Below, piece by piece: positions 2,768-53,676 of a DNA stretch of 54,949 bases (within the stretch, counting starts at the first letter, position 1; each line of letters begins with the position of its first letter). The notes below the pieces were generated by a model that made no database searches, was not told the origin of the DNA, and was given only the letters and a program-made list of their open reading frames with translations. The position numbers and the translations under genes are program-made. Origin of the DNA: Clostridia bacterium (GTDB lineage Bacteria; Bacillota; Clostridia; Christensenellales; Aristaeellaceae). Where the stretch lies: positions 1 through 54,949 of the forward strand of contig JAFTWV010000062.1 of assembly GCA_017465155.1 (NCBI GenBank), written 5' to 3'.

Positions 2768-2818
2768 TCACTCCGCTCAAAGATAACCACCATCAATGTC
2801 GATACGCATAAATCAGTC

Positions 2819-2858: not shown

Positions 2859-2896
2859 TAGCCAGCCGAATGATGACACTACAAAAAGGCACTAAC

Positions 2897-2931: not shown

Positions 2932-2973
2932 CTAAACCAGCAGCGTGTGCTTTTTCAGACTTCCTTCCGTCTG

Positions 2974-8862: not shown

Positions 8863-8892
8863 ATACAATTCCCCCAAGGCTGCTCTCTTTTC

Positions 8893-8921
8893 ATTATACC
8901 CGTTTTTTCCACTTTTTGCAA
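8893..8921 (-). promoter_or_regulatory. Promoter of the LRR surface protein gene
   Basis: On the minus strand TTGCAA (8916-8921) is followed after exactly 17 nt by a consensus TATAAT (8893-8898). Transcription would begin near 8886, giving a leader of about 25 nt with the ribosome site GGGGGA before the ATG at 8862. Confidence 0.85.
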
Positions 8922-8958
8922 CATACCGCCCATTCAAAGATGCCTGTATACCAATAAA

Positions 8959-9801: not shown

Positions 9802-9849
9802 CCGTCAACCTCCTGTCTGCCGGATTCCGGGATCATCCCCGCACAATGG

Positions 9850-16603: not shown

Positions 16604-16662
16604 GTGCTTCCTCGCCTCTTTCATGTCCGTACAATCCGCCCTTAGCAATCTGCATAATCACA

Positions 16663-28083: not shown

Positions 28084-28099
28084 TTGTGCACCCTCCTGC

Positions 28100-37633: not shown

Positions 37634-37747
37634 TTTGTCACCCCTGAACATTTTCCAACAAAAGTTCCCAAACATACAAATATGCCTGTGCCCTGGAATA
37701 TCCAGCGCAAGCAGGCACAGCGGCAGCATTCGTGCCGCTTTGGAACC

Positions 37748-39324: not shown

Positions 39325-39468
39325 GCCATCTGCTCCATTTCTGATGTTACTCTGTTGGTTGGTAAACGAGGATGAAAGCATGCCGTTTGCACGCGCTCAT
39401 CGCCGCTTACCCGTGTTTCCGCCATCGTTGGGGAACCTTTCCGCCGCCATCTGTTTGCTGCATTCACA

Positions 39469-40120: not shown

Positions 40121-41158
40121 TTATTCACAGAATGTGCCGATGATGTACTCCGTCAGCGCATCTGTATCGGGGTGGAATTCGACAAAGCCATCGCTGCCTA
40201 CGGTATGCTCGCCTTGCAGCCGCGCAAGCTTCGTCCGGGTGTACTGCCGTGCCGCGTAGGCCTGACTGACCAGCCAGCCGTTCTCACAGCTGGCGACCAG
40301 ATGCTCCTCCAGCGCCTCCAGCAGCTCGCCCACATACTCGGGGTCTTCTGCCATCCGTTGGGTCAGCAGCTCCGCCGCGGCCTCCATAAACGCTGCCTGA
40401 CGGTTCATGCGGCCCTGATTGGTACCGTCGCCCACCGTCATGCGGCTGCGCAGGAAGTATTCCGCCTGCCGCCCCTGCAGCTTGATGGCCGTGCCGGCCT
40501 TCATCGCCGGATCAAGATCGGTAAAATCCTCCTCCAGCGTCACCGTCACGCCGCCCAGCGCGTCGTTCAGAACGGTCATACCGTCCATATCCAGCGCGAT
40601 GTAGTGATCGATCGGAATGCCGCCAAGCAGGTCCGTCACCGCCCTGACCGTGTTCTGACAGGCCTTTTCAGTGGTCGTGCCAAAGGCGTAGGACAGACAT
40701 ATCTGCGTGTTCCGCTTGCCCGCCGGATTACCAAACGCGCCGTATACCTGCACCTCGGCAATCGTATCGCGGTCAAGCTGCAGCAGATCGACCTGCCGGT
40801 GATCCCGGTCGATGGTCATCAGCAGCAGAAAGTCCGCCTGACCGCCCTGACGCATGGACACGCTGTTCAGCGCCGATTTATCCACGCCAATGAAAAGGAT
40901 GGTCGTGTAGTCCAGCTCCTGATGCGCATAAGTCCGCCCCTTGTGCTCAAGGGTCAACGTCGGCTGAAAGCGTCCCTCCAGACTGCCGCGCACCTCTTCG
41001 GCGTCCGGCTCCAGCCGCTGGCCGATATATGACACGCCCATCAGTCCTGCTGCGAACAGTAAAGCCGTCAGCAGCGCCATCAGCAGCAGCCGGTCGCGCG
41101 GCGGCTTACCGCCGTCGTACCCCTTCTGCCTGCGATGCTTCCTATGCCTGTGAGCCAT
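40121..41158 (-). CDS. LytR-CpsA-Psr (LCP) family protein
   Basis: A 345-residue membrane-anchored protein; the start at 41158 has GGAGAGGGAG about 5 nt upstream. A basic cytoplasmic N-terminus (MAHRHRKHRRQKG) precedes one membrane helix (residues about 25-47). The extracellular LCP domain shows TTILFIGVDKSA, ADFLLLMTIDRDHRQVDLL, QLDRDTIAEVQVYG, ALGGVTVTLEEDF, the conserved LQGRQAEYFLRSR and NQGRMNRQAAFM. LCP enzymes transfer undecaprenyl-linked polymers to peptidoglycan, so this is the likely wall-attachment enzyme for the exopolysaccharide. It is the first gene after a consensus promoter at 41227-41255, and heads the operon. Confidence 0.92.
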   Translation of the reverse strand: MAHRHRKHRRQKGYDGGKPPRDRLLLMALLTALLFAAGLMGVSYIGQRLEPDAEEVRGSLEGRFQPTLTLEHKGRTYAHQELDYTTILFIGVDKSALNSVSMRQGGQADFLLLMTIDRDHRQVDLLQLDRDTIAEVQVYGAFGNPAGKRNTQICLSYAFGTTTEKACQNTVRAVTDLLGGIPIDHYIALDMDGMTVLNDALGGVTVTLEEDFTDLDPAMKAGTAIKLQGRQAEYFLRSRMTVGDGTNQGRMNRQAAFMEAAAELLTQRMAEDPEYVGELLEALEEHLVASCENGWLVSQAYAARQYTRTKLARLQGEHTVGSDGFVEFHPDTDALTEYIIGTFCE

Positions 41159-41226
41159 CTGCACTCCCTCTCCGTCAGCACACTCATTGATCCACGGCAC
41201 CACTTGGACACAATGAATCAGGATTA

Positions 41227-41321: not shown

Positions 41322-42275
41322 TTATTGGTGCAGGTTCTGCGTCCCAAGGTCACGCAGCTTCTGCTCGATCTCTCTGAGGCGGGTTTCAAGACTTTCCCTC
41401 TTTGTCTGCCAGCTCTGGTATTCAGCTGCACAGCTTTCCTCCACCTGCAGATACCTCTGGTATGCCGAGCCAATCGTCGTTACAGCAATCTGTCCCGCTT
41501 TCTCGTATTCCTTGAAAACATCAAGATTGGTGCGGAAATCATTCTGGGAAAATGTTTCCCGGCTATTTTGCCATCCCTCGGTCAGCACCAAAGCGGTCTT
41601 GCCCGACAGGGCCGCAGAGAAGGCATTGTCAATCTCACTGTCCATCGTCCCGCATGCCACGGGATACCAGCCGTCGGAAGAACCACCGTCCACAAGCCCC
41701 CCTCTGCCATACTGGATGATCACCGGGATTCCAAGGGACTGAATCAGCGTCTCAGTCTGCTTTGTGCAGCTGCCATCCGGGAAATACGCTGCACAGGGTG
41801 CTGCAATGCCTGCCGCATTCATGCGCTGCACAAGGTTTGACACATCCGTATCTGCCGTGATGCAGGCCACAACCTCCCACCCCTGCGCTGTCAGCCCATT
41901 AAGTTCCTCCGCCGTCAGGCAGCCATCGCCGCCCGGAAAGAACGTCTCCGATACGGCCACCACGCCAGTGTAGCCGTACTCCGCCATCAGCGGTACAGCC
42001 TCTGCAAGGATACGGGAGTCCGGCTCCGCAAACAAGATATGCGCCGTCGCTGTATGGGCAAAAGCCATTTTCTCTTCCCGTTCCAGCATGGCCAGCTCTG
42101 TATTGATCTCCGTCATCTCAGCCAAATAAGGACGTCGCGCCTCCTCCAGCGCAGCTGCCGCGCTCTGCTTTGCCTCCATCTCCCGCTGATCACTGATCAT
42201 CATCGCCGCAATCGCCAGCGCCGTCAGCACAATCAGGCTGTACACAAGCACGGTGTGTATCTTTCTCCTGTTCAT
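41322..42275 (-). CDS. Membrane-anchored coiled-coil protein with a degenerate polysaccharide-deacetylase-like domain
   Basis: A 317-residue protein with GGAGG 9 nt before the ATG. Residues 7-28 form a membrane anchor (VLVYSLIVLTALAIAAMMI), followed by an Ala/Glu-rich coiled coil (about 30-70). Residues 75-260 look like a NodB-fold deacetylase: LAEAVPLMAEYGYTGVVAV, EELNGLTAQGWEVVACITAD, LGIPVIIQYGRGG, TALVLTEGW. The catalytic TFDDG and zinc-binding HxxxH motifs are not visible, so catalysis is doubtful. A C-terminal coiled coil (residues about 275-317, SLETRLREIEQKL) ends the protein. The gene starts 18 bp after the nucleotidyltransferase gene and closes the peptide/glycosyltransferase cluster. 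A binding or scaffold role is possible; I am unsure of the fold. Confidence 0.6.
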   Translation of the reverse strand: MNRRKIHTVLVYSLIVLTALAIAAMMISDQREMEAKQSAAAALEEARRPYLAEMTEINTELAMLEREEKMAFAHTATAHILFAEPDSRILAEAVPLMAEYGYTGVVAVSETFFPGGDGCLTAEELNGLTAQGWEVVACITADTDVSNLVQRMNAAGIAAPCAAYFPDGSCTKQTETLIQSLGIPVIIQYGRGGLVDGGSSDGWYPVACGTMDSEIDNAFSAALSGKTALVLTEGWQNSRETFSQNDFRTNLDVFKEYEKAGQIAVTTIGSAYQRYLQVEESCAAEYQSWQTKRESLETRLREIEQKLRDLGTQNLHQ

Positions 42276-42293
42276 ATCATCCTGCCTCCAGAA

Positions 42294-43490
42294 TCAATGC
42301 TTCTCCTCATATACCGTGCGGAGCCCCAGACGCCTGAACAGTACAATCCGGTCGCGGCTCTCGTCATAGGAACTCAGCACCTCCCGTATGCCAAGCCCGC
42401 GCTTCATGCTGACAAAAAGCAGTCTGAATATACGGAACAGCCATGCAAAGGGCTTCAGGAAGGGCAGAGAATCAAACAACCTTCGATGATTGCGCAGTCC
42501 GCCCTCCTGCAGCTTTCCGAACAGCTGACGCAGATTGCCAACATCCATCCATTCCCGGGCAGCAATACGCTTTTCACCGTATTTCACGCCAAAATCCCCG
42601 TTGGCCAGCACAAAGGCAAGCAGGCTTTCGCAGCTCTCCTCGTCTGCAGCGCGGCACCATGTCCGATCCTGCAAGGACAGTCCCAGATACCGCTGCGCCA
42701 TAGCTGTCAGCACCACGGCAAACCGCTCCAGTCCGATCTGTGCCGCTGTTTTTCGGAAGGACCCGTGCCACAGCAAATCATCCAATTCTGCCGCTGCATA
42801 CATCATCCAGTCCGACACATGACGCAGTCCCACGCCCTCCTGCAGGTGCTGATACGCGTGCGTCAGCAGTACAAGACCATTTTGAAGCCGCGGCAGCACC
42901 GGAAACTCAAACCCGGCGATACAGGCCGTTTCCGCCTTGTTGATCCCCTCAAAAAGCAGCGCGTCCAGACCGCCGTCCTTCTGCTTTGCAAAAGATTTGT
43001 GTATCTCAAATTCGACGCCATCCCTGTTCAGGCTGTAATGGCGCGGATTGTGATCCAGCGGTTCGGACAGGGCATAGCCGTTGGCCAGCATCAGCTGCAT
43101 CGCCTCGTCCGCCCGTCCCTCCTCCACCAGCAGGTCAACATCTCCCATGCTGCGGTAATCCGGATTGGGATAATACATGGCCGCTGCCGTTCCCTTGATT
43201 ACAACAGACCGTATCCCTGCTTCCTGCAGCAGCGTCAGCAGCGCCGACTGCGCCTGCAGAATGCCATAGAAACGCCGCATGTTCATCACAACAGCCACTG
43301 ACCAGCGCTGCCTGCTGGCATCATCAAGCCCGGGCAGCTCCGCCAGCATCCCGCCGGGAAGGCAGGCAACGGCATGCAGAGACAGTTCCCTGCATACAGC
43401 TTGCCAGTCTGTCTCCGGATCTGCCTGAAGCGGCCGATTAAACAGCGCTTTTCTCAGCAGCGCCAGCGCCGTCTGCTGTATTTCCTCCAT
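42294..43490 (-). CDS. NTP_transf_5-type nucleotidyltransferase
   Basis: A 398-residue protein resembling the uncharacterised nucleotidyltransferase family PF14907. I start at MEEIQQTALALLRKALF (43490), with AAGGGTGAG close upstream; the previous gene's stop is 4 bp away. The key segment is SVVIKGTAAAMYYPNPDYR followed by SMGDVDLLVEEG, giving a nucleotidyltransferase-like KG plus DxD pattern, and then GVEFEIHKSF with another acidic residue. The rest is helical. Family members often sit with PqqD-like proteins and HPr-kinase-like enzymes in peptide (for example lasso) loci, where tailoring of the peptide has been proposed. The same partners are present here, so it may modify the 34-residue peptide or a glycan; the substrate is not known. 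Confidence 0.82.
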   Translation of the reverse strand: MEEIQQTALALLRKALFNRPLQADPETDWQAVCRELSLHAVACLPGGMLAELPGLDDASRQRWSVAVVMNMRRFYGILQAQSALLTLLQEAGIRSVVIKGTAAAMYYPNPDYRSMGDVDLLVEEGRADEAMQLMLANGYALSEPLDHNPRHYSLNRDGVEFEIHKSFAKQKDGGLDALLFEGINKAETACIAGFEFPVLPRLQNGLVLLTHAYQHLQEGVGLRHVSDWMMYAAAELDDLLWHGSFRKTAAQIGLERFAVVLTAMAQRYLGLSLQDRTWCRAADEESCESLLAFVLANGDFGVKYGEKRIAAREWMDVGNLRQLFGKLQEGGLRNHRRLFDSLPFLKPFAWLFRIFRLLFVSMKRGLGIREVLSSYDESRDRIVLFRRLGLRTVYEEKH

Positions 43491-43494
43491 CAAC

Positions 43495-44706
43495 TCACCC
43501 TTCCCTGCATGTCTCCAGCTCGTGATACAACGCAATGTATTCCTCGCACATGCGCTCCACGCTGAACCTCTTCGCCCGTTCAAGGCATGCCTCGCGGGTC
43601 ATCGCACCCGTACGCGCCTGCTCATGGATCGCTGCGATCATAGCATCCACATCACCGTAGGGAATTACGCGTCCGCAGTATTCATCCGGAATTTCTGCGC
43701 TGCCGCCGGTGTCGAAGGTAATGACCGGCGTCCCGCAGGCCAGTGCCTCCACGTTCACAAGACCGAATGTCTCCTCCTGTGTCGTCTGCAGAAACATATC
43801 CGCGGCAGAGTAAATCCCCGCCAGACGAGCCGTATCACGCGTATTCCGAATAGACACAATCTCCGGCGGAAGCATCTCTTCCACCTCTTCATCTGTTCCA
43901 ACCAGTACCAGCTGATAGCTTTTATCCAGTTTCTCAGCCAGTGTGATCATCGTCTTCAGGCCCTTCCGGCGCCGCCAGTCATCTGCCACGCCCAGAAGAA
44001 CCGTTTTTCCTTCCAGACCGTATTCCTCCCGGAAATTGCCGGCTACCGGCCTGAATCTATTCAGGTGAATACCACAGTAAATCAGTCTTCCCGGATATTG
44101 ACCAAGAAAAGATTGCTTCACATCCCGCTCCAGCCACGCAGCCGTGCTGACAACGACCATCTTATCTACGCCAGCGAACCATTGCTTCTTCATCTGCCAC
44201 ATAGCGGCCGTGTTATCCACATCGCTGTATGGCCAGCGTTCCATCAGCGGGCACTCGCCACAGCCCGTTTTCCACTTATCGCACTTCGCCATGCTATAAT
44301 GGATGCACTTGCCCGTGTAGGGCCAGCAGCAGTGCAGCGTCCACACAACAGGGATGTGACGTTCCCGAATCCAGTCAAAAAGCATCGGCAGGTTCAGAAC
44401 GAAGTTATGCAGATTGAACAACTGAACCAGCTCAATCCCCAGCTCCTCAAAAGCACGCAGCATCTCCCGGGTGCCGTCTTCCTCAAAGCAGCCGTTGAGG
44501 CCTGTACGGATTCCTTGTTCGATATGCTCCTGGTGAGAAGCCGGCGTGCCGATCTCGAAGCTCCACGGCAGGATCTTCACAGCACCCTCCTCAGCCGGAG
44601 TAAAGGTATACATCTCGTGCCCCTGCTTCCACATATATATTGCCAGATCGTTCATAATCTGCCCCGTAGAAGAGCCCTTCACCCCATTAACCGCTGCGAT
44701 GCGCAT
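43495..44706 (-). CDS. Family 4 glycosyltransferase
   Basis: A 403-residue GT-B fold enzyme. The start at 44706 (MRIAAVNGVKGSSTGQIMND) has GGAGG 10 nt upstream. Features include WTLHCCWPYTGKCIHYS with a following cysteine-containing segment (KCDKWKTGCGECPLM), seen in WcaC/WcaL-like family 4 enzymes, LLGVADDWRRRKGLKTMI, and the acidic donor-site segment TTQEETFGLVNVEALACGTPVI. It would act in the cytoplasm on a nucleotide sugar. It lies between a family 2 glycosyltransferase (19 bp upstream) and the NTP_transf_5 gene (4 bp downstream), inside the cluster holding the PqqD-like and kinase-like genes. Confidence 0.9.
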   Translation of the reverse strand: MRIAAVNGVKGSSTGQIMNDLAIYMWKQGHEMYTFTPAEEGAVKILPWSFEIGTPASHQEHIEQGIRTGLNGCFEEDGTREMLRAFEELGIELVQLFNLHNFVLNLPMLFDWIRERHIPVVWTLHCCWPYTGKCIHYSMAKCDKWKTGCGECPLMERWPYSDVDNTAAMWQMKKQWFAGVDKMVVVSTAAWLERDVKQSFLGQYPGRLIYCGIHLNRFRPVAGNFREEYGLEGKTVLLGVADDWRRRKGLKTMITLAEKLDKSYQLVLVGTDEEVEEMLPPEIVSIRNTRDTARLAGIYSAADMFLQTTQEETFGLVNVEALACGTPVITFDTGGSAEIPDEYCGRVIPYGDVDAMIAAIHEQARTGAMTREACLERAKRFSVERMCEEYIALYHELETCREG

Positions 44707-44725
44707 AAACCCGTTTCCTCCAAAG

Positions 44726-45721
44726 TCATTCTGTCCACACGAACCCCGGAACACCATCGCCAGCTGTACGGAGGAACTCGCACACCGCCGCGGCGTCCCC
44801 TCGCGCAACCAACCTCCATAAGCAGGTATCATCTGGCGTTTTAGGCGTTTCAGCAAAACACCTCTCCCTCAGAAGCGGCTCCTGCAGATACATCTGCATC
44901 ACCAACAGCCGTTGTCTTTCCGGCATTGCTTCGATCTGCGCCAATTTCTTCAGATGTTTGCAGATTTCATATACATAGCGCTTATCGAAAAACGTCAGCG
45001 CCGCCGGGACGCCTGCAAACACCCTGCGCGTCAATCCCCATGCCCGTGCGCTGATCTCCGGCTGATCCAGCCAGAAGCGCTTTCCCAGCGTGTTTTCCCT
45101 GCCGTTCCAGCGGTAATGGTACAGACTCTCCGAAATAAAGCGGATCCCCTGCGCATGCGGAAGGTATTCAAGATTGAAGATGAGATCCTCAGCATGGCGC
45201 AGGCTTTCATCAAAACGACAACAGATGCTTGCACGCCGGTAGAGCTTCGTACAGGCAGACAACACACCGTCCCGCCATATTTGCTCCATATATCCTCCCA
45301 TCTCCCGAACATCGCCAAAGGAGTATGCCTTATCCAGCCATCCCGTGCCGCTTTCCGGAAAACGCGCCAGTCCGAAGGCCACCACATCAGCCCCCTCTGA
45401 ATGGGCCAACGCCGTCTGCAGCGCTTCCGGCGCCAGCTTGTCATCGCCATCAAGAAACAAGACCCACTCGCCCCGGGCCATATCGAGTCCGGCGTTGCGC
45501 GCACTGGCCAGGCCACCGTTCTCCTTATGGATCACCCGGATGCGCACATCCCGTGAAATCCACGCATCGCACATCGCGCCAGACGCATCCGTGGCGCCAT
45601 CATCTACCAGGATCAATTCCCAGTCCGTATTTGTCTGCGCCAGCACACTGCCGACAGCCTCATCCAGATACGCTGCCACATTGTATACCGGCACAACCAC
45701 CGTGACCTGCGGAGCGCTCAT
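44726..45721 (-). CDS. Family 2 glycosyltransferase
   Basis: A 331-residue GT-A enzyme with VTVVVPVYNVAAYLDEAV, LILVDDGATDASGAMCD and the metal-binding VLFLDGDDKL. I prefer MSAPQ (45721): it aligns with the MSGAQ start of the neighbouring double glycosyltransferase and has GGAGAGAAGG close upstream. An upstream ATG at 45745 overlaps the preceding stop as ATGA and is the alternative. The C-terminal half resembles that of the double glycosyltransferase encoded just before, suggesting gene duplication. Donor and acceptor are unknown. Confidence 0.85.
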   Translation of the reverse strand: MSAPQVTVVVPVYNVAAYLDEAVGSVLAQTNTDWELILVDDGATDASGAMCDAWISRDVRIRVIHKENGGLASARNAGLDMARGEWVLFLDGDDKLAPEALQTALAHSEGADVVAFGLARFPESGTGWLDKAYSFGDVREMGGYMEQIWRDGVLSACTKLYRRASICCRFDESLRHAEDLIFNLEYLPHAQGIRFISESLYHYRWNGRENTLGKRFWLDQPEISARAWGLTRRVFAGVPAALTFFDKRYVYEICKHLKKLAQIEAMPERQRLLVMQMYLQEPLLRERCFAETPKTPDDTCLWRLVARGDAAAVCEFLRTAGDGVPGFVWTE

Positions 45722-45741
45722 CAGCCTTCTCTCCATACATC

Positions 45742-47646
45742 TCATCCGTTATCCAGCAATTTCAGCAGCATCTCCACGTCCCTGCGGAGCACTGCATCCC
45801 AGAATTCCTGCAAGTCATCATTCAGCAGCGCCGTGCTGATGCGCCCGTGATCGAAGCTATCGTCTCCCAGCCACAGCTGTATCATCAGCCGCCGTACATC
45901 CTTCGGCAAGCTCTTCTGACCCGCATAATACATCAGATACAGCCGCAGCTCAATCACATACCACCGCGAGAGCGTCTCCATGACAGGCGACCCATCAGGG
46001 AACATCCCGCCAAAGAGCCGCAGGCTTTCGCGTACCTGCTCCATCCTGTCGATGCGGAAGGCGTGGGTAAGGGAATCCGGCCGCTGCGCATAACAGTAGG
46101 TATCGTCCGGCACGAACACCACCCGCTGCCAGTGGGCAAAGTTCGCTATCAGGAAGGTGACGTCGTCGATGTAGCTCACATCTGTCCGGAAGGGCACGAC
46201 GATGCCTTTGCAGCGGTAAAGCTTGTTGATAGGGGAGTGGAACATGCGCAGGTAGAATAGCTCCGTCAGCTCCTCCTGCGTGATTTCTGCAAGCTCGAAG
46301 CACTTTGGCGCGTCTACCGTGCGCCAGGGTGCCCTCTGCCCCGGAAAATGCCCCACTACCACATCCGCGCCCTGCGAATGGGCCAGCAGCTTTTCCAGCG
46401 CGTCCGCCTCCATCCAATCATCGCTGTCGACAAACAGCAGCCATTCGCCCCGTGCTTGCGCCATCCCGGCATTACGCGCTGCGGATGAGCCGCCATTCTC
46501 CGTATGCAGGCAGGAGATCCGCTCATCCCGGGCAGCATACTCATCGCATACCGCGCCGCTGCCATCCGTGGAGCCGTCATCCACCAGAATCAATTCCCAG
46601 TCGGATACCGTCTGCGCAAGTACGCTGCCAATGACCCGCGGCAGATATTGCTCCGTATTATATACGGGGATCACAATGCTGACAATGGGCCGCCCGGTCA
46701 GGCGCAGCAAGCCCTGCACGTCCTGTGCACGCAGGAGCGCCGGAACGCGCCAGTGCCACGTCGGCTGCCCACCATACTGCAGCAGTTCCGCATCTCCGGC
46801 GCAATCCGCCACGCACACATCCATCAGCAGGTCCCTACGCTCTCGGGACATCTGCTGCGCGCCGTTCACGCACGACAAATACAGACACAGCTCCTCTGCA
46901 TACCACCGCGACTGCAGGCACATCGCATCTTCACAATCCCTCAGCAATTCACGGAGCATATGAAAACAGCGGCGTACCTGTCTCATCCTGTCCAGCCGAA
47001 AGGTGCAGGAGAGTGAATCCGGCCGTATCGTGTAGTGATACGTCGCATCCGGAATCACCGTCACCCGCCGCCAGTTCGGCCACTGCTGCAAGTTGAAGAC
47101 CACATCCTCGATGGAATAGAGTCCCGACTCGAAGCCGCCGGTAATTCGCCCGCGCCGGTAGAGCTTGTTCCACACCGGGTGAAACATCTTGAGAAAGAAC
47201 ATCTCCGACAGTTCCTCCTGCGTAGCCTGCGCAGGAACGAAGGTCCGGAGCGCATCCACATTGCGCCAGGGCAACGTTTTCTCCGGATAATGACCCATCA
47301 CCACATCCGCGTCCGCAGAACAGGTCAGCAGACGCGCCAGAGCATATGGTTCAATCCAGTCGTCGCTGTCGATGAAAAAAAGCCACGTCCCCGCCGCCAG
47401 CGCCATGCCGGCATTGCGCGCACAAGATGGCCCCGCATTCGCCTGATGCACAACCCGCACCCGCGAATCGGTCTGCGCATACTCATCGCATACCGCGCCG
47501 CTGCCGTCCGTGGAGCCGTCATCCACCAGAATCAATTCCCAGTCGGATACCGTCTGCGCAAGTACGCTCTCCACCGCGCGGGACAGGTACTGCTCCGCAT
47601 TGTACACGGGAATGACAATACTCACAAGGGGCTGCGCTCCGCTCAT
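45742..47646 (-). CDS. Tandem double family 2 glycosyltransferase
   Basis: A 634-residue protein with two complete GT-A domains in tandem. Residues 1-320 and 321-634 each show VSIVIPVYN, LILVDDGSTDGSGAVCDEY, a conserved ARNAGMA and FIDSDDW or FVDSDDW. Both catalytic sites look intact. Parts of the two halves are almost identical at DNA level (about 46551-46620 and 47500-47570), so the duplication is recent or kept alike by gene conversion. Such two-domain enzymes may add two sugars in turn. GAGGAG is 8 nt before the ATG. The gene follows the PqqD-like gene by 62 bp; that gap has a 7-bp inverted repeat but no promoter. Confidence 0.9.
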   Translation of the reverse strand: MSGAQPLVSIVIPVYNAEQYLSRAVESVLAQTVSDWELILVDDGSTDGSGAVCDEYAQTDSRVRVVHQANAGPSCARNAGMALAAGTWLFFIDSDDWIEPYALARLLTCSADADVVMGHYPEKTLPWRNVDALRTFVPAQATQEELSEMFFLKMFHPVWNKLYRRGRITGGFESGLYSIEDVVFNLQQWPNWRRVTVIPDATYHYTIRPDSLSCTFRLDRMRQVRRCFHMLRELLRDCEDAMCLQSRWYAEELCLYLSCVNGAQQMSRERRDLLMDVCVADCAGDAELLQYGGQPTWHWRVPALLRAQDVQGLLRLTGRPIVSIVIPVYNTEQYLPRVIGSVLAQTVSDWELILVDDGSTDGSGAVCDEYAARDERISCLHTENGGSSAARNAGMAQARGEWLLFVDSDDWMEADALEKLLAHSQGADVVVGHFPGQRAPWRTVDAPKCFELAEITQEELTELFYLRMFHSPINKLYRCKGIVVPFRTDVSYIDDVTFLIANFAHWQRVVFVPDDTYCYAQRPDSLTHAFRIDRMEQVRESLRLFGGMFPDGSPVMETLSRWYVIELRLYLMYYAGQKSLPKDVRRLMIQLWLGDDSFDHGRISTALLNDDLQEFWDAVLRRDVEMLLKLLDNG

Positions 47647-47708
47647 GCTTCCATCTCCTCACATCAGCGAATCACAGCCCCCGCAGGTGTTATTCGCTTT
47701 TCTCTTGC

Positions 47709-47972
47709 TCACTCAACGCAGCCGATCTTCACCAGCGGCGCAAGGAACGCCTCGACGTCCTTCTCCGCCTGCAGCAGTTCAATGCCGTACTCCTTCGCCA
47801 GTGCATCGGCCAGATCAGCCTTCTCCGCACCATCCTTAAGCAGGTTCCAGAGCATCACGCCGCTGGCATTGAGCTTGATGATGCCATTGAGCTTCGCGCT
47901 GGCCACGCCGATGGGCATCACGACGCTTTCGTTTGCGACCTTGCGCAGGATAAATCCTTCGGTAATCTTCAT
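47709..47972 (-). CDS. PqqD-family peptide-binding protein (RRE-like)
   Basis: An 87-residue PqqD-like protein. These winged-helix proteins bind the leader of a ribosomally made peptide and present it to a modifying enzyme. The typical pattern is seen: MKITEGFILRKVANESVVMP, then LNGIIKLNASGVMLWNLL, DGAEKADLADALAKEY, a DVEAFL helix and a final IGCVE. I prefer ATG at 47972, with AAGGAGA 9 nt upstream; the ATG at 47981 touches that ribosome site and overlaps the preceding stop as ATGA. It lies between a glycosyltransferase and a double glycosyltransferase, in the same operon as an HPr-kinase-like gene and downstream of a small YxxP peptide, its most likely partner. The binding is not proven. Confidence 0.87.
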   Translation of the reverse strand: MKITEGFILRKVANESVVMPIGVASAKLNGIIKLNASGVMLWNLLKDGAEKADLADALAKEYGIELLQAEKDVEAFLAPLVKIGCVE

Positions 47973-47977
47973 ATTTC

Positions 47978-48988
47978 TCATTCTCCTTCGATCATTTCAG
48001 TCCAGAGCCGCTCGTCCTGCCACACCGGTCGATGGGGTTTATCAGCCGGATGGAGCCCTGCCAGCCATCGGGTCAGCGTTTCCGCCCCTTCCGACCTGCG
48101 CAGAGACAATACCGGTATCCCCAGCGCCTGTGCTGCAGCCCCTGCGCCCACATTCTCGTCGTCGAAATTTACCACGCCGTCACAATGCCGCAGCATCGCA
48201 TTCAATTTATCATCCGCCGCCCCCTGCGAAAATACCTCTTCACACACGTCGTTCAGGATGATTTCCCGCAGAAGATATGGCTGCCGCGGTCCATCGCCAA
48301 TGATGTGCCACCGAAGGCGCGGACAAACCTTTCGCGCCTGCGCTGCCAACGCAGGGATCCGTTCCGCCTGACGCCACTCCATCAGCGGTTCCGCTGTCAG
48401 GATGTGAAAACAGTCCGTCTCCATCGTCTGGGGCGCAGCGGCTTCCGGCGCTTCACAGGGCAAGTGAGCCAGTACGCTCCTGATCTGCGGGAACATATCG
48501 GTAAAGTTTTCCTGCGTCCAGCGGGTCGCTGCCGCAACGGCGTTAAGCGCTCCCCAAACCGGCGCATAGGCAACCTTATCCGCGTCCGACAGAAACAGGC
48601 GAGGCTCACAGGGAAGGTACGCCACTTTCCGCGCCGCCCGGATCCGATACAGTGCCGTGGCAAGACACCATGGATGCAGACCATCCAGTGCAACCGCACA
48701 GTCCCATTCACCCGGCAGCGTTGGCACCTCCATCCAGGCCGCCAGCCCTCGCTGCATGTATGTTGCATGAGACTGCCCGGACACGTCTGCCGCAGCATTA
48801 TCCAGCAGCACTCCGACGCCATCAGGCAGTTCTTCATACATTTTATCCCGGAATGCCCTGAGGACAAGCGTGATGTGATACCTTCCACGCCAACGGCGTA
48901 CCAATTCCCGCAGCGTCTGAGCACCGCCGGGCAGAAGGCGGCCATCCTCCACGAGATCCGGCGGTATGACCAGTGCAACGCGCTTCAT
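47978..48988 (-). CDS. GT-B-like glycosyltransferase
   Basis: A 336-residue protein resembling family 4 glycosyltransferases but divergent. The N-terminal domain shows RVALVIPPDLVEDG, a glycine-rich LLPGGAQTLREL and KVAYLPCEPRLF; the C-terminal domain has HILTAEPLMEW, LRWHIIGDGPRQPYL and VVNFDDENVGAGAAAQALG, where the last acidic segment takes the place of the usual EX7E donor motif. Activity is likely but less sure than for the neighbours. GAGGAGG suits the second of two ATGs (48988) better than the first (48991). Its stop lies within the ribosome-binding region of the PqqD-like gene, so the two are translationally linked. Confidence 0.75.
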   Translation of the reverse strand: MKRVALVIPPDLVEDGRLLPGGAQTLRELVRRWRGRYHITLVLRAFRDKMYEELPDGVGVLLDNAAADVSGQSHATYMQRGLAAWMEVPTLPGEWDCAVALDGLHPWCLATALYRIRAARKVAYLPCEPRLFLSDADKVAYAPVWGALNAVAAATRWTQENFTDMFPQIRSVLAHLPCEAPEAAAPQTMETDCFHILTAEPLMEWRQAERIPALAAQARKVCPRLRWHIIGDGPRQPYLLREIILNDVCEEVFSQGAADDKLNAMLRHCDGVVNFDDENVGAGAAAQALGIPVLSLRRSEGAETLTRWLAGLHPADKPHRPVWQDERLWTEMIEGE

Positions 48989-49000
48989 CATATCGCCTCC

Positions 49001-50008
49001 TCAGAATTTCTCAAAGCTGCTCATCTCCGGCAGCCGACGCTCAAACAGCGCGCGAATGTACGCTGCACGCGGCGCAAAGTCGAACTGCTCATTCCCTTCG
49101 TTCAAGCACAGAACGCGGGTGTCCGGGGAGAGGATGGCGTCACGCAGCGCTTCCTCTGACGCTCCCACTGTCATAAGCCGACGCCCCGGCTGCATATAGG
49201 GAACAAAACGACCAGTCGCCAGCTGCCAGTAGCGGATAAGCCAGTTATTCACGTTCGTGATGTCACGGAAACGGCTCCGGCAAGACACCTCAAGTCGTGC
49301 TTTCTCTTCCCGCCATACTTCCCTGTAGGTGGACAGCTTAAGCGGAACAGGAAAATGGTCTCCTCCAAAGCCTGCAAAACAGCGCCAGCGCAGAGCAGCC
49401 CGATTATCCGCACGCACAGTTTCCGAGTATGCTTCGCTAAACCAGTACTGCGGCAATCTTTCCGCGCATTCCCGAGCAGCAAAATGGCGATTGATAGCCG
49501 CCATGTCATTCCAGAGAATGTGTCCAAAGCTGGTCGTACACCGGTCAGTGATAGGCTGCACATGCAGATAATCACAGGGAAGGCCTTCCCGGAAATACTC
49601 TTCCTTCCCCTGCGGACCTAAGAAATAAAAATCATCATTTGCGGAAATAAAACATTCTGCGAGGCCTTTGATCCGATGAAAGTTCAACTCAATCGGAATG
49701 GAGGAAAACACAGGTCTGTATTCTTCCGGCAAGAAATCCTCATGCCGGACAATATGCAGTTTTGGATGCTCCGTATTGAGCCACGGCGGCAGGTGGCCCC
49801 AGGTAACAAAATGCACACGTCTGATCCACGGCAGATACTTATCCACCCCGCGAAACCAGTAACGCATCAATCCCCAATCACGAAACATCGAAGGTTCCAA
49901 TGGCTTTTGATCCAAATATTGCTGCCGTTGCTTCTGCCAGGCCGTATCCTGATCGTCCAGCCAGGTAACGACCAGATCGATCTCTGCACTCTCCTTCGCA
50001 CAGCTCAT
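49001..50008 (-). CDS. Stealth-family phosphotransferase
   Basis: A 335-residue protein with the four Stealth conserved regions: CR1 IDLVVTWLDDQDTAW, CR2 from RYWFRGVDKYLPWIRRVHFV through SSIPIELNFHRIKGL to CFISANDDFYFLG, CR3 around RCTTSFGHILWND with HFAAREC, and CR4 near SRFRDITNVNNWLIRYW. Stealth proteins transfer hexose 1-phosphate from UDP-sugars to glycans, making phosphodiester-linked polymers, as in meningococcal CsaB-type capsule enzymes. The start overlaps the HPr-kinase-like stop as ATGA, so the two are translated together. A Stealth enzyme coupled to a peptide-kinase-like gene is uncommon and may mean a phosphosugar is put on the peptide or on a glycan linked with it; this is inference. 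Confidence 0.88.
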   Translation of the reverse strand: MSCAKESAEIDLVVTWLDDQDTAWQKQRQQYLDQKPLEPSMFRDWGLMRYWFRGVDKYLPWIRRVHFVTWGHLPPWLNTEHPKLHIVRHEDFLPEEYRPVFSSIPIELNFHRIKGLAECFISANDDFYFLGPQGKEEYFREGLPCDYLHVQPITDRCTTSFGHILWNDMAAINRHFAARECAERLPQYWFSEAYSETVRADNRAALRWRCFAGFGGDHFPVPLKLSTYREVWREEKARLEVSCRSRFRDITNVNNWLIRYWQLATGRFVPYMQPGRRLMTVGASEEALRDAILSPDTRVLCLNEGNEQFDFAPRAAYIRALFERRLPEMSSFEKF

Positions 50009-50745
50009 CGTGGCCTCATCCCTTCCCAGGCAACATACGCCGCCCCCACATCCATGTTGCAGTGCAGTACGTACACCGGCACCTTCTCCACCAGGCGCTC
50101 ATAGAGTCTCAAGTGTGCCTCCAGCGTATCAGGAGTGACGCGGGTATTGCTGCGGAACAACAGCGTAAGCGCCGCCGCCGGATCAATGCGGTCGATGCGA
50201 TTCTCCTGAGCATGCCGGAGGAAGCAGATACCCCTGAGCGGCACTCCTGTGTTGACCTGCTTCCCTTCTTTACCGCAAAACGGCGTACCAAAGGCATGGA
50301 ACACACCGTCCATCTCCCGCAGGATTGGGTTATCGCCATTGATAATCCGCGTCCGATCACCGAAAGCTTCCAGCCACAGCTGCGCATGAGTGCTCTTGCC
50401 ATACCCACTGGGCGCCGTGAAGGCATACGCTGCGCCCTCCATCTCCAGCACCGAAGCATGCAGCCAAAGCGCGCCAAAGCGCGTCAGCTGTGGGTACATC
50501 GGATGGGCGATACAAGCAAACTCCGCCTCACCCATGGAGACCTCAGCGCCCTCTTCATCCAAAAACCACTGCTGCGCTTTTCTGACAGCAGCTTCATCTC
50601 CGCCAATAGTCAGTTGTGCCGGCTCATCATCCATGACAATATAGTCAGCACAGCGGCACCGCACAACATCGTAAAGGTCGTTCACTTCTACCGTCAGACC
50701 TGCTATTCGGATTTTAAAGTGTTTTCGGTTCTCCCATGCGCACAT
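50005..50745 (-). CDS. HPr kinase-like protein of the peptide-modification type
   Basis: A 246-residue kinase-like protein related to the C-terminal domain of HPr kinase/phosphorylase. I start at 50745 (MCAWENRK), with GGGGA about 7 nt upstream; a TTG at 50778 is possible. Residues 85-125 have the family core: MYPQLTRFGALWLHASVLEM, then Walker A APSGYGKST (111-119). IINGDNPIL (Asp) and FHAFGTPFCGKEGKQVN follow, corresponding to the magnesium and substrate loops. The protein is much shorter than true HprK. Similar kinases in lasso-peptide loci (PadeK type) phosphorylate a precursor Ser. It lies directly downstream of a 34-residue peptide gene with Ser at 25 and 32, a plausible substrate. It overlaps the Stealth gene by 4 nt. 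Confidence 0.85.
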   Translation of the reverse strand: MCAWENRKHFKIRIAGLTVEVNDLYDVVRCRCADYIVMDDEPAQLTIGGDEAAVRKAQQWFLDEEGAEVSMGEAEFACIAHPMYPQLTRFGALWLHASVLEMEGAAYAFTAPSGYGKSTHAQLWLEAFGDRTRIINGDNPILREMDGVFHAFGTPFCGKEGKQVNTGVPLRGICFLRHAQENRIDRIDPAAALTLLFRSNTRVTPDTLEAHLRLYERLVEKVPVYVLHCNMDVGAAYVAWEGMRPR

Positions 50746-50784
50746 GATGCCATCCCCGTTTTCCCAGTTGCCTGTCAAAATAGA

Positions 50785-50818
50785 ACAAAAAAGCGGCAGG
50801 GCTTTAGCACCCCACCGC
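50785..50818 (-). terminator. Terminator directly after the small peptide gene
   Basis: On the minus strand the arms at 50810-50818 and 50793-50801 form a 9-bp stem with two wobbles and an 8-nt loop, then TTTTTTG. It begins 18 bp after the peptide stop. Leakage through it would supply the kinase operon, for which I see no separate promoter. Confidence 0.85.
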
Positions 50819-50835
50819 CGAGGCGTTGGTTCTGT

Positions 50836-50940
50836 TTAGATAGGAGATTCGAGCCGGCCCTGGCCAGACAGTGCAGCCAGCACGTAGTCCTTCTCGAAGT
50901 CAATGACCTCCGCCACGGGAGCTTCATACTTGTTGTTCAT
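50836..50940 (-). CDS. 34-residue precursor-like peptide with YxxP motif
   Basis: A 34-codon gene with an excellent ribosome site, AAGGAGG (50949-50955), 8 nt before the ATG, its own promoter 136 bp upstream and its own intrinsic terminator directly after it. The peptide begins MNNKYEAPVAEVIDF, continues with the acidic EKDYVLAAL and ends SGQGRLESPI. The YxxPxxxxI pattern near the N-terminus is like leaders recognised by PqqD-like/RRE proteins in lasso and related systems; SG at 25-26 could open the core. No Cys or Thr is present; Ser25, Ser32 and Tyr/Asp/Glu/Arg are possible modification sites. With PqqD-like, HPr-kinase-like, nucleotidyltransferase, S26-like peptidase and exporter genes around it, it is probably a modified exported peptide. 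Its end product is unknown. Confidence 0.78.
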   Translation of the reverse strand: MNNKYEAPVAEVIDFEKDYVLAALSGQGRLESPI

Positions 50941-51026
50941 GGGAAATACCTCCTTCATTTTTATGTCAGGCGCATGCTTCAGCATCTTCTGAATAAAGCA
51001 ATGCACTGTGCTATCGGCAGGAATTC

Positions 51027-51041
51027 CCGCCCACACGGCGG
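51027..51041 (-). other. Small hairpin in the long leader of the peptide gene
   Basis: CCGCC (51027-51031) and GGCGG (51037-51041) pair around a 5-nt loop in the roughly 130-nt untranslated leader. A short palindrome GCACTGTGC is at 51003-51011. These may affect mRNA stability; I do not recognise a riboswitch. Confidence 0.35.
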
Positions 51042-51075
51042 ACTGTCCACAGCAGTAAGACAATGCTCCATTAGC

Positions 51076-51104
51076 AGTATAACATAGCTTCTTTCCAATT
51101 GCAA
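51076..51104 (-). promoter_or_regulatory. Promoter of the small peptide gene
   Basis: On the minus strand TTGCAA (51099-51104), a 17-nt spacer and TATACT (51076-51081) make a strong promoter. The predicted start near 51069 leaves a leader of about 130 nt before the peptide ATG. Surrounding DNA is AT-rich compared with the rest of the window. Confidence 0.87.
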
Positions 51105-51139
51105 TAACACAATTTGTTTTTTTCAACATTTTCCCATTT

Positions 51140-51311
51140 TCATCCGTTTATCTGCACAAGGAAAGCCGTCCACAGACGCAGCCGCATGCGGGTGTTCTTT
51201 CCATATCCTCCGGGCGCAGCGAAGGCAAAGCCCGCTCCCTCCATGCCGATCAGCGCCAAGCGCAGCCAGAACGCCCCTGCCGGGCCAGCCGCGGATATAC
51301 GCCGTAACCCA
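51140..51311 (-). pseudogene. Remnant of a second HPr-kinase-like gene
   Basis: In two minus-strand frames this short region encodes pieces clearly homologous to the intact kinase gene at 50005-50745. One frame gives VYPRLARQG (intact: MYPQLTRFG); after a frameshift the next gives AFWLRLALIGMEG then AGFAFAAPGGYGKNT (intact: ALWLHASVLEMEG then AAYAFTAPSGYGKST), followed by unrelated residues and a TGA at 51140-51142. The Walker A Ser is changed to Asn and the conserved His before it to Arg. Both ends of the gene are missing. It is a decayed fragment of a duplicated kinase, lying between the S26-like peptidase gene and the precursor peptide. Confidence 0.85.
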
Positions 51312-51331
51312 CAGAGAGGAGGGCCGTAATA

Positions 51332-51808
51332 TCATGTTTTCCGCACCGGGTGCAGCATGCGTTTCATCCGTGCCCGCAGCCCTTCCGGCAGCCTTTTATA
51401 CAGCACCAGCAGGCCATGAAGCTTCGGCCATATCCAGGCATATGCGCGATAGCGCAGATCATTTGCTTCAATATATTGTTCATCCCGGTAGAAGCCCTTC
51501 ATCACAGCGATAATCTGTTCCTCCCGGATCGTTTCCTTTTCACTGCTATTATCGCCGCGAATGATATACCCGGTCTTCCCGACCCGCAGCACCCGGTGCA
51601 TCACCGCCATCCCATCTCTGCGGTAGAGCGCCACATCGCCCTTCTTCAGCCGGCCCTGCAGCGGCACAAACAAGACGCTGTCCCGGCGCGGACGGATCAT
51701 TGGACGCATGCTGCCGCTGATGGGCGTGCCCAAGTCAAAGCCGTGCCGTGCAAGCATTTGTTCATGTGTGCAGCTCTTGCTTACGACAGTCTCCCTGCAA
51801 CAAGCCAA
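51332..51808 (-). CDS. S24/S26-family peptidase (signal-peptidase-like, no membrane anchor)
   Basis: A 158-residue protein starting at a TTG (51808), with GGGAGG 8 nt upstream; the frame extends ten codons further to another TTG without a ribosome site. It has the family pattern GTPISGSMRPMIRPRRDSV (catalytic Ser about 33), LKKGDVALYRRDG, MHRVLRVGKTGYIIRGDN (His about 71). The Lys base of classical signal peptidases is not evident, so it resembles Ser-His SipW-like or peptide-locus S26 enzymes. There is no transmembrane helix. In peptide loci such proteins are thought to remove leaders; the 34-residue peptide is the likely client. It is the first gene on the minus strand after a strong promoter and diverges from the ABC exporter. 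Confidence 0.82.
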   Translation of the reverse strand: MACCRETVVSKSCTHEQMLARHGFDLGTPISGSMRPMIRPRRDSVLFVPLQGRLKKGDVALYRRDGMAVMHRVLRVGKTGYIIRGDNSSEKETIREEQIIAVMKGFYRDEQYIEANDLRYRAYAWIWPKLHGLLVLYKRLPEGLRARMKRMLHPVRKT

Positions 51809-51846
51809 TTTCCGTTCCTCCCGTCCGCACAAGATCAATCGAAGTC

Positions 51847-51875
51847 AGTATATCATGCGACTCCTGTACCGTCAA
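51847..51875 (-). promoter_or_regulatory. Promoter of the S26-like peptidase gene
   Basis: TTGACG (51870-51875), a 17-nt spacer and TATACT (51847-51852) are on the minus strand. It faces away from the exporter promoter, with 46 bp between the two -35 boxes. Confidence 0.88.
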
Positions 51876-51921
51876 GCAACACCCTCACACAAAAAAACGC
51901 GCCGTTCAACTGTCTTTATGC

Positions 51922-51950
51922 TTGTCAATCCCCCCTTCCTATGCTACACT
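51922..51950 (+). promoter_or_regulatory. Promoter of the ABC exporter gene
   Basis: TTGTCA (51922-51927), a 17-nt spacer and TACACT (51945-51950) are on the plus strand. The predicted start near 51957 gives a leader of about 37 nt with AGGTGA at 51982-51987. Confidence 0.8.
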
Positions 51951-51993
51951 GACACAAATGCAACTCATTCTATTGTCAGGCAGGTGAACCGCT

Positions 51994-53676
51994 TTGAACC
52001 ATCCGAACCGTTTTCCTGCGTTGCGCTGGATTGCTGCGCGCGCCCGGGGACAATACATACGGGTCTTCTATCTCATTCTGTCCGACACACTGTCCGCACT
52101 GCTTGCCGTCAGCTATGCGCTGCTGTGCCGGAACATCATTGATGCAGCCGTAGCCGGCGATGCATCGAGTCTCCTCCGCGCCATCCTTCTGATTGCCAGC
52201 ATGATTCTGCTGGATGTGATCCTGCAGGCATCACGCCGCGTCATCGCAGAGCTGGTTGCTGTCCGGTTGAATTTGGCTTTGCAAAATCACGCTGTCCGCC
52301 AGCTGATCCAGCGGAATTTCTCCGCCGTTGCCGCCTACCACAGCGGCGAGCTGCTCAATCGCATCTTCTCGGACGTGCGCGTGATCTCCAACAGCGCAGC
52401 CAACCTGCTGCCGTCCCTTTCCTATATGGCGGCGCGGCTGCTCGGCGCGGCCGCAGCCCTTTTTGCCCTTGCGCCACGCTTTACGCTGCTGTGCCTGATC
52501 ATCGGCGCGGCAGTATCCCTGCTGATGATGCTCATGCGGAACACGATCAAGCGCCTGCACAAGGAATCACAGGCTGCCGAGGGCAAAACGCGTTCCTTTA
52601 TGCAGGAAATCATGGAGCGTCTGCTCGTCATCAAGGTATTCGGCGCAGCTGAAGCTGTTCAGCAACGGCTCATGTCCCTGCAGGAAGCTCTCGCCGCATG
52701 CCGCATGAAATCCCGGGCGGCGAGCATTGCATCCAGCACAGGCTTTTCGCTGCTGTTTGATTTGGGGCATTTCTCCGCGCTTGTCTGGGGCGCCCTGGGT
52801 ATCCTGAACAAAACCATTTCCTACGGAACGCTGACCGCCATGCTTCAGCTGGTCGGGCAGGTGCAGCAGCCCTTCAGCAGCTTCTCTAACCTGATCGCGC
52901 AGGTCTTCACCGTCACTGCCAGCGCCGAACGCCTCATGGAACTCGAAGAACTGCCTCTGGAATCCCCACAGCCTGACATTTCCTATGACGACCTCGTTTC
53001 CATCCGTTTCGACCACATTGACTTCACCTATGGCCGCACGGATGTGCTGCGGGACGTGAACATCACGCTTCGCAAGGGTGACATGATTTCCATCACCGGC
53101 ATATCCGGCGGAGGCAAAAGCACACTGTTCCTGCTCCTGCTGGGCGCATACAAGCCTGCAGCAGGCGAGGTATGCTTCGCGCTGAGCACCCCGCCGTATA
53201 CGCTGGCTCCGGGCGAGGCTACACGCCGCCTCTGCGCCTATGTGCCGCAGGGAAATTACCTGCTGTCCGGCACGCTGCGGGAAAACCTGACGCTTTTCAG
53301 CGCCAATGTAGCCGAATCCTCCATCTGGCAGGCTCTTGCGCAGGCCTGTGCGGCAGACTTTGTCCGCGAACTGCCGCTGGGGCTGGAAACGCCGCTGGGC
53401 GAAAGAGGTCACGGTTTGTCCGAAGGCCAGATGCAGCGCATCGCCATCGCCCGCGCACTGCTCAGCAACGCGCCTGTCCTGCTGCTGGACGAAGCCACCT
53501 CCGCGCTGGACGAGGCCACGGAAGCCCTTCTTTTGCAGAACATCTCCGCCCTGCAGCACCGCACCTGCCTGATCGTCACCCACCGCCGCTCCGCACTGGC
53601 CATCTGCAGCCGTCATCTGCTGATTCAGGACGGACGGGTATTTGAGCGCACCGCAGAAGAGATCGACAACCTGTGA
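51994..53676 (+). CDS. ABC exporter (fused permease and ATPase)
   Basis: A 560-residue half transporter. It begins at TTG (51994) with AGGTGA 6 nt upstream. Residues about 20-300 contain six membrane segments of the ABC exporter type 1 fold. The ATPase domain has Walker A SITGISGGGKSTLFLLLLG (about 368), Q-loop region LCAYVPQGNYLLSGTLREN, signature GLSEGQMQRIAIARAL (about 474), Walker B VLLLDEATSALDEAT and the switch His in LIVTHRRSAL. There is no N-terminal C39 peptidase domain, so any leader removal must be done by another enzyme, such as the S26-like protein encoded divergently. Its position suggests export of the modified 34-residue peptide. It is the only gene on the plus strand right of 2767. 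Confidence 0.92.
   Translation: MNHPNRFPALRWIAARARGQYIRVFYLILSDTLSALLAVSYALLCRNIIDAAVAGDASSLLRAILLIASMILLDVILQASRRVIAELVAVRLNLALQNHAVRQLIQRNFSAVAAYHSGELLNRIFSDVRVISNSAANLLPSLSYMAARLLGAAAALFALAPRFTLLCLIIGAAVSLLMMLMRNTIKRLHKESQAAEGKTRSFMQEIMERLLVIKVFGAAEAVQQRLMSLQEALAACRMKSRAASIASSTGFSLLFDLGHFSALVWGALGILNKTISYGTLTAMLQLVGQVQQPFSSFSNLIAQVFTVTASAERLMELEELPLESPQPDISYDDLVSIRFDHIDFTYGRTDVLRDVNITLRKGDMISITGISGGGKSTLFLLLLGAYKPAAGEVCFALSTPPYTLAPGEATRRLCAYVPQGNYLLSGTLRENLTLFSANVAESSIWQALAQACAADFVRELPLGLETPLGERGHGLSEGQMQRIAIARALLSNAPVLLLDEATSALDEATEALLLQNISALQHRTCLIVTHRRSALAICSRHLLIQDGRVFERTAEEIDNL

Follow-up and report, generated by a model that had tools for sequence, protein, structure and literature searches.

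The window, a stretch of 54,949 nucleotides from a Clostridia bacterium (contig JAFTWV010000062.1; source genome ~69% complete), very probably contains a locus for a ribosomally synthesized and post-translationally modified peptide (RiPP) of the Linear Polyphosphorylated Peptide (LPP) type, lying beside a capsule/exopolysaccharide (EPS) gene set. According to the main text of the LPP report, to which all statements on published LPPs made here are confined (Popov et al., Nat Commun 17:6633, 20 May 2026; PMC13381572), the set comprises the precursor LppA, an HprK-like kinase (LppK), a RiPP recognition element (RRE; LppB), a SipW-like peptidase (LppS), an MsbA-like exporter (LppD) and an NTP transferase (LppN), and the cluster studied is lppA-K-B-S-D-N of Paenibacillus alginolyticus. 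The original prediction, made from the sequence of the window, had named the genes of this locus, and open reading frames and domain matches bear them out (Table 1), although weakly for the fourth glycosyltransferase (47978-48991, E 0.0013). It had proposed a peptide-modification locus with lasso-type accessory proteins and no cyclase, with which the gene set and conserved residues agree; phosphorylation as the likely main modification, followed by S26-like leader removal and export, would likewise match the published LPP roles. Its view of the system as undescribed does not hold, as the core set has already been published as LPP (PMC13381572).

The gene set, the conserved residues and the recurrence of the module are observed here, whereas each chemical step is drawn from published work on LPPs and lasso peptides. 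In the proposed pathway the PqqD-like RRE would bind the YEAPVAEVIDF leader, the HPrK-like kinase would put one or more phosphates on Ser25, and the soluble SipW-type peptidase would cut the RRE-presented leader just before Ser25, most likely after Ala22 (VLA/ALSG, the slash marking the cut), leaving a core of ~12 residues. The NTP_transf_5 protein, perhaps with the Stealth protein and the glycosyltransferases, may add sugar, and the MsbA-like pump would export the product. The placing of the cut and of the phosphate is suggested by the register with LppA (FET/AQS) and by the VLA sequence common to the window and a second locus, L256. In the published system LppK adds several phosphates to core Ser3, and LppS cuts after Thr-1, aided by LppB (PMC13381572). 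Cleavage after the conserved Ser was considered and dropped, since LppA is cut before its phosphorylated Ser3.

Table 1. Features of the window locus and of L256, and stalk proteins whose tails match the peptide of their own locus
Locus	Feature	Coordinates	Strand	Remarks
Window	LytR-CpsA-Psr glycopolymer ligase	40121..41203	-	adjoining capsule/EPS gene set begins here
Window	membrane-anchored protein	41322..42275	-	no Pfam match over cut-off
Window	NTP_transf_5 protein, LppN/PsmN-like	42294..43583	-	PF14907 E 7e-40; likely start ~43490
Window	GT4 glycosyltransferase	43495..44856	-	match over cut-off; likely start ~44706
Window	GT2 glycosyltransferase	44726..45745	-	match over cut-off
Window	double-domain GT2 glycosyltransferase	45742..47646	-	GT2 match over cut-off
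Window	PqqD-type discrete RRE, LppB-like	47709..47981	-	PF05402 E 2e-14
Window	GT4-like glycosyltransferase	47978..48991	-	weak match, below cut-off
Window	Stealth-type sugar-phosphate transferase	49001..50008	-	Stealth_CR2 E 3e-36
Window	HPr-kinase-like peptide kinase, LppK-like	50005..50778	-	likely start ATG 50745
Window	terminator-like hairpin directly 3' of peptide gene	50792..50819	-	minimum free energy -22 kcal/mol, z -2.6
Window	34-residue LppA-like precursor MNNKYEAPVAEVIDFEKDYVLAALSGQGRLESPI	50836..50940	-	likely phosphoacceptor Ser25
Window	promoter-like site upstream of peptide gene	51076..51104	-	TTGCAA-17-TATACT; consensus match only
Window	second HPr-kinase-like gene remnant	51173..51280	-	P-loop region only; 53% identity to intact-kinase residues 101-136
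Window	S26/SipW-type peptidase, LppS-like	51332..51838	-	Ser43, His81, GD at 95-96; no membrane segment
Window	MsbA-like ABC exporter, LppD-like	51994..53676	+	membrane and ATPase parts fused; MsbA model E 1e-70, below model cut-off
L256	kinase	759-1472	-
L256	NTP_transf_5	1480-2652	-
L256	frame of DUF285/LRR repeats	2652-4148	-	S26 part fused behind
L256	GT2	4171-5136	-
L256	GT4	5158-6402	-
L256	Stealth	6432-7415	-
L256	peptide MVYEAPKAEIIDFENEEVLAIDFSNAEEE	7469-7558	-
L256	PqqD	7603-7875	-
L256	partial exporter	contig end	-
L105	tail-matching stalk protein	9425-9982
L115	tail-matching stalk protein	9524-9982
L117	tail-matching stalk protein	229-798
L129	tail-matching stalk proteins	3198-3479 and 3534-3953
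L144	tail-matching stalk protein	7915-8439

The module proteins of the window

The peptidase, peptide, kinase, Stealth, PqqD, NTP_transf_5 and four glycosyltransferase genes are all on the minus strand, with the exporter divergent on the plus strand. Tight overlaps of kinase with Stealth and of glycosyltransferase with PqqD, as originally described, are confirmed by coordinates and are 4 bases each (50005-50008 and 47978-47981). No peptidase domain was matched in the exporter. The membrane-anchored protein at 41322..42275 has a homologue directly upstream of the kinase in locus L111. A decayed second kinase sits between the peptidase and peptide genes of the window, and loci L051, L052, L054 and L057 each have two or more kinases.

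Both the kinase and the S26-like protein keep the residues conserved in their relatives. Sixteen columns are invariant in an alignment of 12 kinase sequences, with the window site intact, and Ser43 and His81 of the peptidase are present in 30 of 30 aligned sequences, window included; the peptidase is soluble by hydropathy, with a best 19-residue value of 0.49. K130, G131, R144, D148 and D150 of the NTP_transf_5 protein occur in 93% of 16 aligned sequences. The discrete RRE matches PF05402, with a match in 15 of 15 aligned sequences (window included), and its Asn38 and Asp75 align with N33 and D70 of LppB; the Asn that grips the YxxP motif is kept in 130 of 137 RRE frames and the Asp in 92, the window having both, and the solved paeninodin-type RRE has Gly and Gln at these positions. 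Aligned to the LppB segment, the window RRE agrees at 19 of 56 positions, and aligned to the PbaB1 segment at 15 of 76.

No Radical_SAM match was found on the window contig, and none of the 17 matches in the source genome lies on it; one frame among these (C134, 463 aa) has a weak PqqD match. We take the latter to be a SCIFF-type maturase. A radical SAM enzyme acting in trans was considered and set aside, the genome's matches all lying elsewhere.

Several observations weigh against assignment to the LPPs. The published precursor signature Px9Fx[T/A] is present in none of 61 precursors, the window's included, and the locus is therefore classed as a variant working like LPP; at 34 residues the window precursor is also one below the published range of 35-200 (PMC13381572). 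The kinase and the S26-like protein fall under every curated cut-off: the kinase has no useful Pfam match and its best NCBIfam match is ScmC (TIGR04249; E 1.4e-8, 34.5 bits vs a cut-off of 125), and the S26-like protein has matches below cut-off only. The kinase of the window has non-consensus residues at N150, F167, H189 and S210. A profile of the 15 RRE rows ranks TbiB1, TfuB1 and PbaB1 above LppB, fourth of four, and the window RRE alone places TbiB1 first and LppB second. Two NCBIfam lasso RRE models match all 15 rows, with the window well below cut-off, and the Asn/Asp pair is also found in many lasso and PQQ RREs (PMC13381572). Since these rankings are nearer to lasso RREs and the pair is not unique, the RRE does not appear from its sequence to single out LPP, and it is the gene set as a whole that speaks for LPP-like function; our confidence in the LPP assignment was lowered by the RRE ranking. 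YxxP peptides were, finally, not detected near the kinase in many relatives of the module, as follows.

Recurrence of the module and its precursor peptides

Relatives of the window kinase were collected in three sets. In the family of the window a relative was found in 43 of 150 genomes (source genome included), and 40 regions were taken around part of these places. A scan of GTDB contigs gave at least 558 confirmed relatives, and the best 80 were used, mostly from gut and rumen Clostridia, including Faecalibacterium prausnitzii, Ruminococcus flavefaciens, R. albus and Blautia schinkii. In the class the kinase profile, which also picks up HPr-kinase-like proteins of other length, matched 106 of 391 genomes, and 60 of the full-length places were taken. 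The family and GTDB loci form the first sets and the class loci the second set, with a total of 180; the kinase is identical in at least four pairs among these, and 3 of the 60 second-set loci repeat first-set loci. Controls were 20 hand-picked regions. Neighbours were counted on the same strand within 5 kb of the kinase, and many kinase regions are truncated at contig ends.

The kinase is accompanied by PqqD in 29/40, 62/80 and 42/60 loci (family, GTDB and class, here and below), by S26 in 28/40, 53/80 and 32/60, by NTP_transf_5 in 9/40, 20/80 and 15/60, and by a module-like exporter in 18/40, 18/80 and 9/60. Kinase, PqqD and S26 occur together in 24/40, 49/80 and 31/60 loci, or 104 of 180 overall with the repeats included, and the commonest gene order is kinase-PqqD-S26-exporter-NTP_transf_5. 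In seven cases one frame combines two functions, kinase and PqqD in two of these. None of the 20 controls has a kinase, PqqD, S26 or NTP_transf_5 match; one has a radical SAM match and two an ABC match.

The original prediction had proposed to look for co-occurrence of the peptide with its partner families; the peptide was found within 5 kb of the kinase in 25/40, 15/80 and 10/60 loci. Partner genes with no YxxP peptide detectable within 5 kb, which had been named beforehand as an argument against the prediction, make up 25 of the 44 loci having kinase, PqqD and NTP_transf_5 and 88 of the 133 having kinase and PqqD; some peptides may have escaped detection where a contig is cut or a leader diverges.

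The YxxP motif of the window peptide is YEAP. Its ATG is preceded by a GGAGG ribosome site, and directly 3' the gene has a stem of 11 pairs and a T run (terminator-like, by consensus match). The peptide may be expressed above the enzymes, given the strong ribosome site, the promoter-like site and the terminator-like hairpin. The bare YxxP pattern is no better than random, with 103 matches vs 99 in one shuffle, and 16 vs 9 when a ribosome site is required. A leader profile, partly trained on near matches, found 51 peptides near the kinase vs 6 elsewhere in the first sets (E up to 1e-3). In the second set it found 10 near the kinase (0.56 Mb of strand) vs 2 elsewhere (1.09 Mb), none of the 10 coming from a repeated locus; as leader-profile peptides concentrate near the kinase in this set, the window peptide is not a chance open reading frame. 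The leader consensus is [KM]-[KE]-K-[YF]-E-x-P-E-x-E-[VI]-[IV]-x-F-E-x-E-D-[VI]-[IV]-T-T-S-G, and the junction Ser is present in 46 of the 54 leaders having a letter at that column.

Short precursors lacking a radical SAM gene are present in L048, L050, L070, L104, L105 and L117, and L034, from the window's genus, has a short precursor too, at the point where its contig begins. A radical SAM gene lies within 5 kb of the kinase in 24/40, 9/80 and 0/60 loci, the window locus differing from those 24 family loci in having none. LPP-like modules with a SPASM-type radical SAM gene (L040, L042, L052, L054, L057, L059, L061, L062, L121, L131 and others) are common in the window's family and have the same leader and junction Ser, with cores that mostly contain Cys; it is possible that they produce phospho/radical-SAM hybrid RiPPs. 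Upstream of the kinase, L049, L054, L057, L058, L059, L061, L062, L066 and L068 have a recurring protein of 70-95 residues with an 'xLDxVxGG'-like N-terminal motif, possibly a second substrate near the radical-SAM-type modules. Small acidic lipoproteins are encoded directly upstream of kinase-PqqD-S26 in L096 (9684-9956), L103 (9695-9976), L106 (2677-2940) and L112 (5782-6099); no YxxP peptide was detected in these four loci, and the lipoproteins may be the module substrate there.

Sugar genes, capsule loci and surface proteins

Interleaving of the module with glycosyltransferases, a central part of the original prediction, recurs in L256 (G663:C65), from another genus, but is not general, as Stealth is absent from all 180 kinase loci. 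Glycosyltransferases like the window's are absent from L034, L048, L050 and L070, and L041 has two GT2 genes on the opposite strand. Stealth genes are present in 28 of 300 family genomes, the source genome included. Among the 27 others, six also have kinases, on other contigs or >400 kb away, and the other 21 were taken as 22 regions; L256 is the one case with Stealth beside the module, and L260 has NTP_transf_5 alone beside Stealth. In the genus of L256, PqqD relatives occur in 14 of 45 genomes, with no other Stealth within 1.5 kb.

The L256 and window leaders have YEAPxAExIDFExxxVLA in common, and an 11-pair hairpin (z -4.9) lies directly 3' of the L256 peptide gene, as in the window. L256 also holds the best match to the window kinase (181 loci), PqqD (112 matched) and GT2 genes, and the second-best NTP_transf_5 (44 loci matched), although its S26 ranks only 62nd (114 matched). 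An earlier position of ours, that sugar genes are never part of the module, is overturned by L256. The mixture is thus neither a general feature nor a mere accident; the Stealth/glycosyltransferase composite is rare, found in two genera, and probably either predates the species to which the window belongs or has moved from one of these genera to the other.

A tentative refinement of the LPP assignment is a sugar-adding subtype, in which the phosphopeptide would be the acceptor for Stealth and the glycosyltransferases, giving a phospho-glycopeptide or a peptide-linked glycan. The finding of L256 among the remaining Stealth loci raised the odds of this subtype, as its module parts, Stealth, GT4 and GT2 run in one direction and include the closely matching genes described above, and it is favoured too by the 4-base overlaps in the window and by the module lying inside EPS operons in Blautia schinkii (L122) and in a Faecalibacterium metagenome-assembled genome (L137). 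Among lasso relatives, in the part of that report drawn on here, PadeK acts as kinase on the C-terminal Ser, and phospho-Ser receives hexoses from PsmN (PMC9266682). Set against it, only two loci have this arrangement; the other 26 family Stealth genomes, and 14 of the class (391 genomes searched; no module gene within 1.5 kb of Stealth), have no adjoining module; the poor rank of the L256 S26 also counts against it; and deletion of lppN in the published cluster had no visible effect (PMC13381572).

A capsule setting is found more widely. For 60 kinase clusters, 6 contigs have Wzz no more than 15 kb from the kinase vs ~0.8 expected, in a rough count with the window excluded, and a Wzz-like gene within 37748-39381 (minus strand) of the window is confirmed by Pfam. 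We take the neighbouring minus-strand genes of the window to be Wze-like (within 37748-39381), CapD-like (35627-37729), a priming sugar transferase (34971-35591) and flippase- and polymerase-like (26569-29215). L122 has, all in the same orientation, genes for a CapD-like protein, NTP_transf_5, peptide, kinase, PqqD, S26, LytR-CpsA-Psr and a priming transferase. EPS hallmarks occur in 20 of 120 loci vs 1 of 20 controls, a difference too weak by itself, and a capsule link of the module has been reported in Bacilli (PMC13381572). Beside the EPS genes of the window are two very large secreted-looking proteins of 2009 and 3239 aa (2974-9003 and 16750-26469) with BspA-like repeats, and at 12938-16648 a protein that also looks secreted combines fibronectin-type repeats with a C-terminal region resembling caspases, all recognized by eye.

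Many relatives encode near the kinase a secreted, lipidated or SLH protein with a linker rich in Ser, Thr, Glu and Asp and a short tail. By one crude rule with the sets pooled, this stalk architecture is present in 27 of 884 frames upstream of the module vs 24 of 7112 other frames, a count that includes a few repeated loci and many spurious frames. In 5 of 45 first-set peptide loci (Table 1; L105 is closely related to L117) the tail mirrors the C-terminal end of the peptide encoded at the same locus, as in L129, where the peptide has EDELPWVPA and two proteins have EDELPW[IL]PA. Eight of 1281 first-set peptide-protein pairs score at least 22 vs 0.9 expected, two of the eight being tandem L035 peptides. 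The match is not replicated in the second set (12 peptides), where none of 149 pairs reaches even 18 vs 0.36 expected, with weak likeness only in L234 and L240. In the window no stalk neighbour was seen, and a search of the source genome for a second protein ending in ESPI returned only the peptide itself and a single, very short frame. None of the words lipoprotein, surface, S-layer or radical appears in the main text of PMC13381572.

We consider it unlikely, although worth stating, that the module serves the cell surface in Clostridia. The window and L256 would make a phospho-glycopeptide, with Stealth and the co-translated glycosyltransferases building on the phospho-Ser of a 9-12 residue core and the product joining the capsule or envelope; in other relatives, Ser/Thr/Glu-rich lipoproteins or SLH stalk proteins encoded near the kinase would also display the same C-terminal core, so that a single tag would be borne both by the peptide and by a surface protein.

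That the locus is instead decaying or rewired, its peptide no longer modified, is improbable. The second kinase is a fragment, the gene order departs from the usual kinase-PqqD-S26-ABC-NTP, and four conserved kinase positions are changed, but the intact frames keep their conserved residues, ribosome site and overlaps, and L256 retains the same parts in a different order. Slightly less probable still is a lasso locus whose cyclase and B2 protease have disappeared or lie elsewhere in the genome: the RREs resemble lasso B1 proteins and HprK and NTP_transf_5 accompany lasso clusters, but no lasso cyclase or leader protease gene lies on the window contig, just as originally predicted, Transglut_core3 is unmatched in the source genome (~69% complete) and only partially matched in 19 of the 43 genomes that have the kinase (a single match slightly exceeds the cut-off, and no match adjoins a kinase), the genome's one Asn_synthase match is partial (49 of 354 positions, over cut-off) and on another contig, the locus has an S26-like peptidase of its own, and its core seems too short to form a lasso.

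Comparison with known systems

Published LPPs were studied in Bacilli (PMC13381572), and the loci described here add a clostridial precursor branch that many gut and rumen species have, some of them in culture (Faecalibacterium prausnitzii, Blautia schinkii); its leader signature would escape the published scanning motif. Whether LPPs are glycosylated could be tested on the window and L256 as a small pair of loci, and hints on function come from the forms coupled to radical SAM genes and from the surface stalk proteins encoded nearby.

Among other systems, HPr-rel-A shares PqqD and an HprK-like kinase with the window, but its models TIGR04352 and TIGR04353 are below cut-off (16.8 vs 200 bits and 21.2 vs 35 bits). 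The SynChlorMet cassette (ScmC/ScmD) supplies the kinase's best named match, below cut-off, and radical SAM genes are absent from the window contig. Phosphorylated lasso peptides (paeninodin, pseudomycoidin; PMC9266682, in part) share a B1-type RRE, an HprK-like kinase and NTP_transf_5, but their macrolactam cyclase and transglutaminase-like protease were not found for the window locus.

LPP clusters lie in glycosyltransferase-rich capsular loci and about two thirds are without lasso enzymes (PMC13381572). With these the window shares all six functions, the YxxP leader, the LppB-type Asn/Asp of the RRE, a SipW-like peptidase, the lack of a cyclase and B2 in the cluster, and a capsule locus rich in glycosyltransferases. 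It differs in an order split by Stealth and glycosyltransferase genes, a divergent exporter and a kinase fragment, and in its core of ~12 residues rather than 45. The LPP leader YxxPxVLxHQxIxFETxxS corresponds to YExPxxEvIxFExeDVITtS in the clostridial peptides, which have one to two more positions between the Pro and the junction Ser. The window locus is thus known in kind, as LPP, and new as a clostridial branch.

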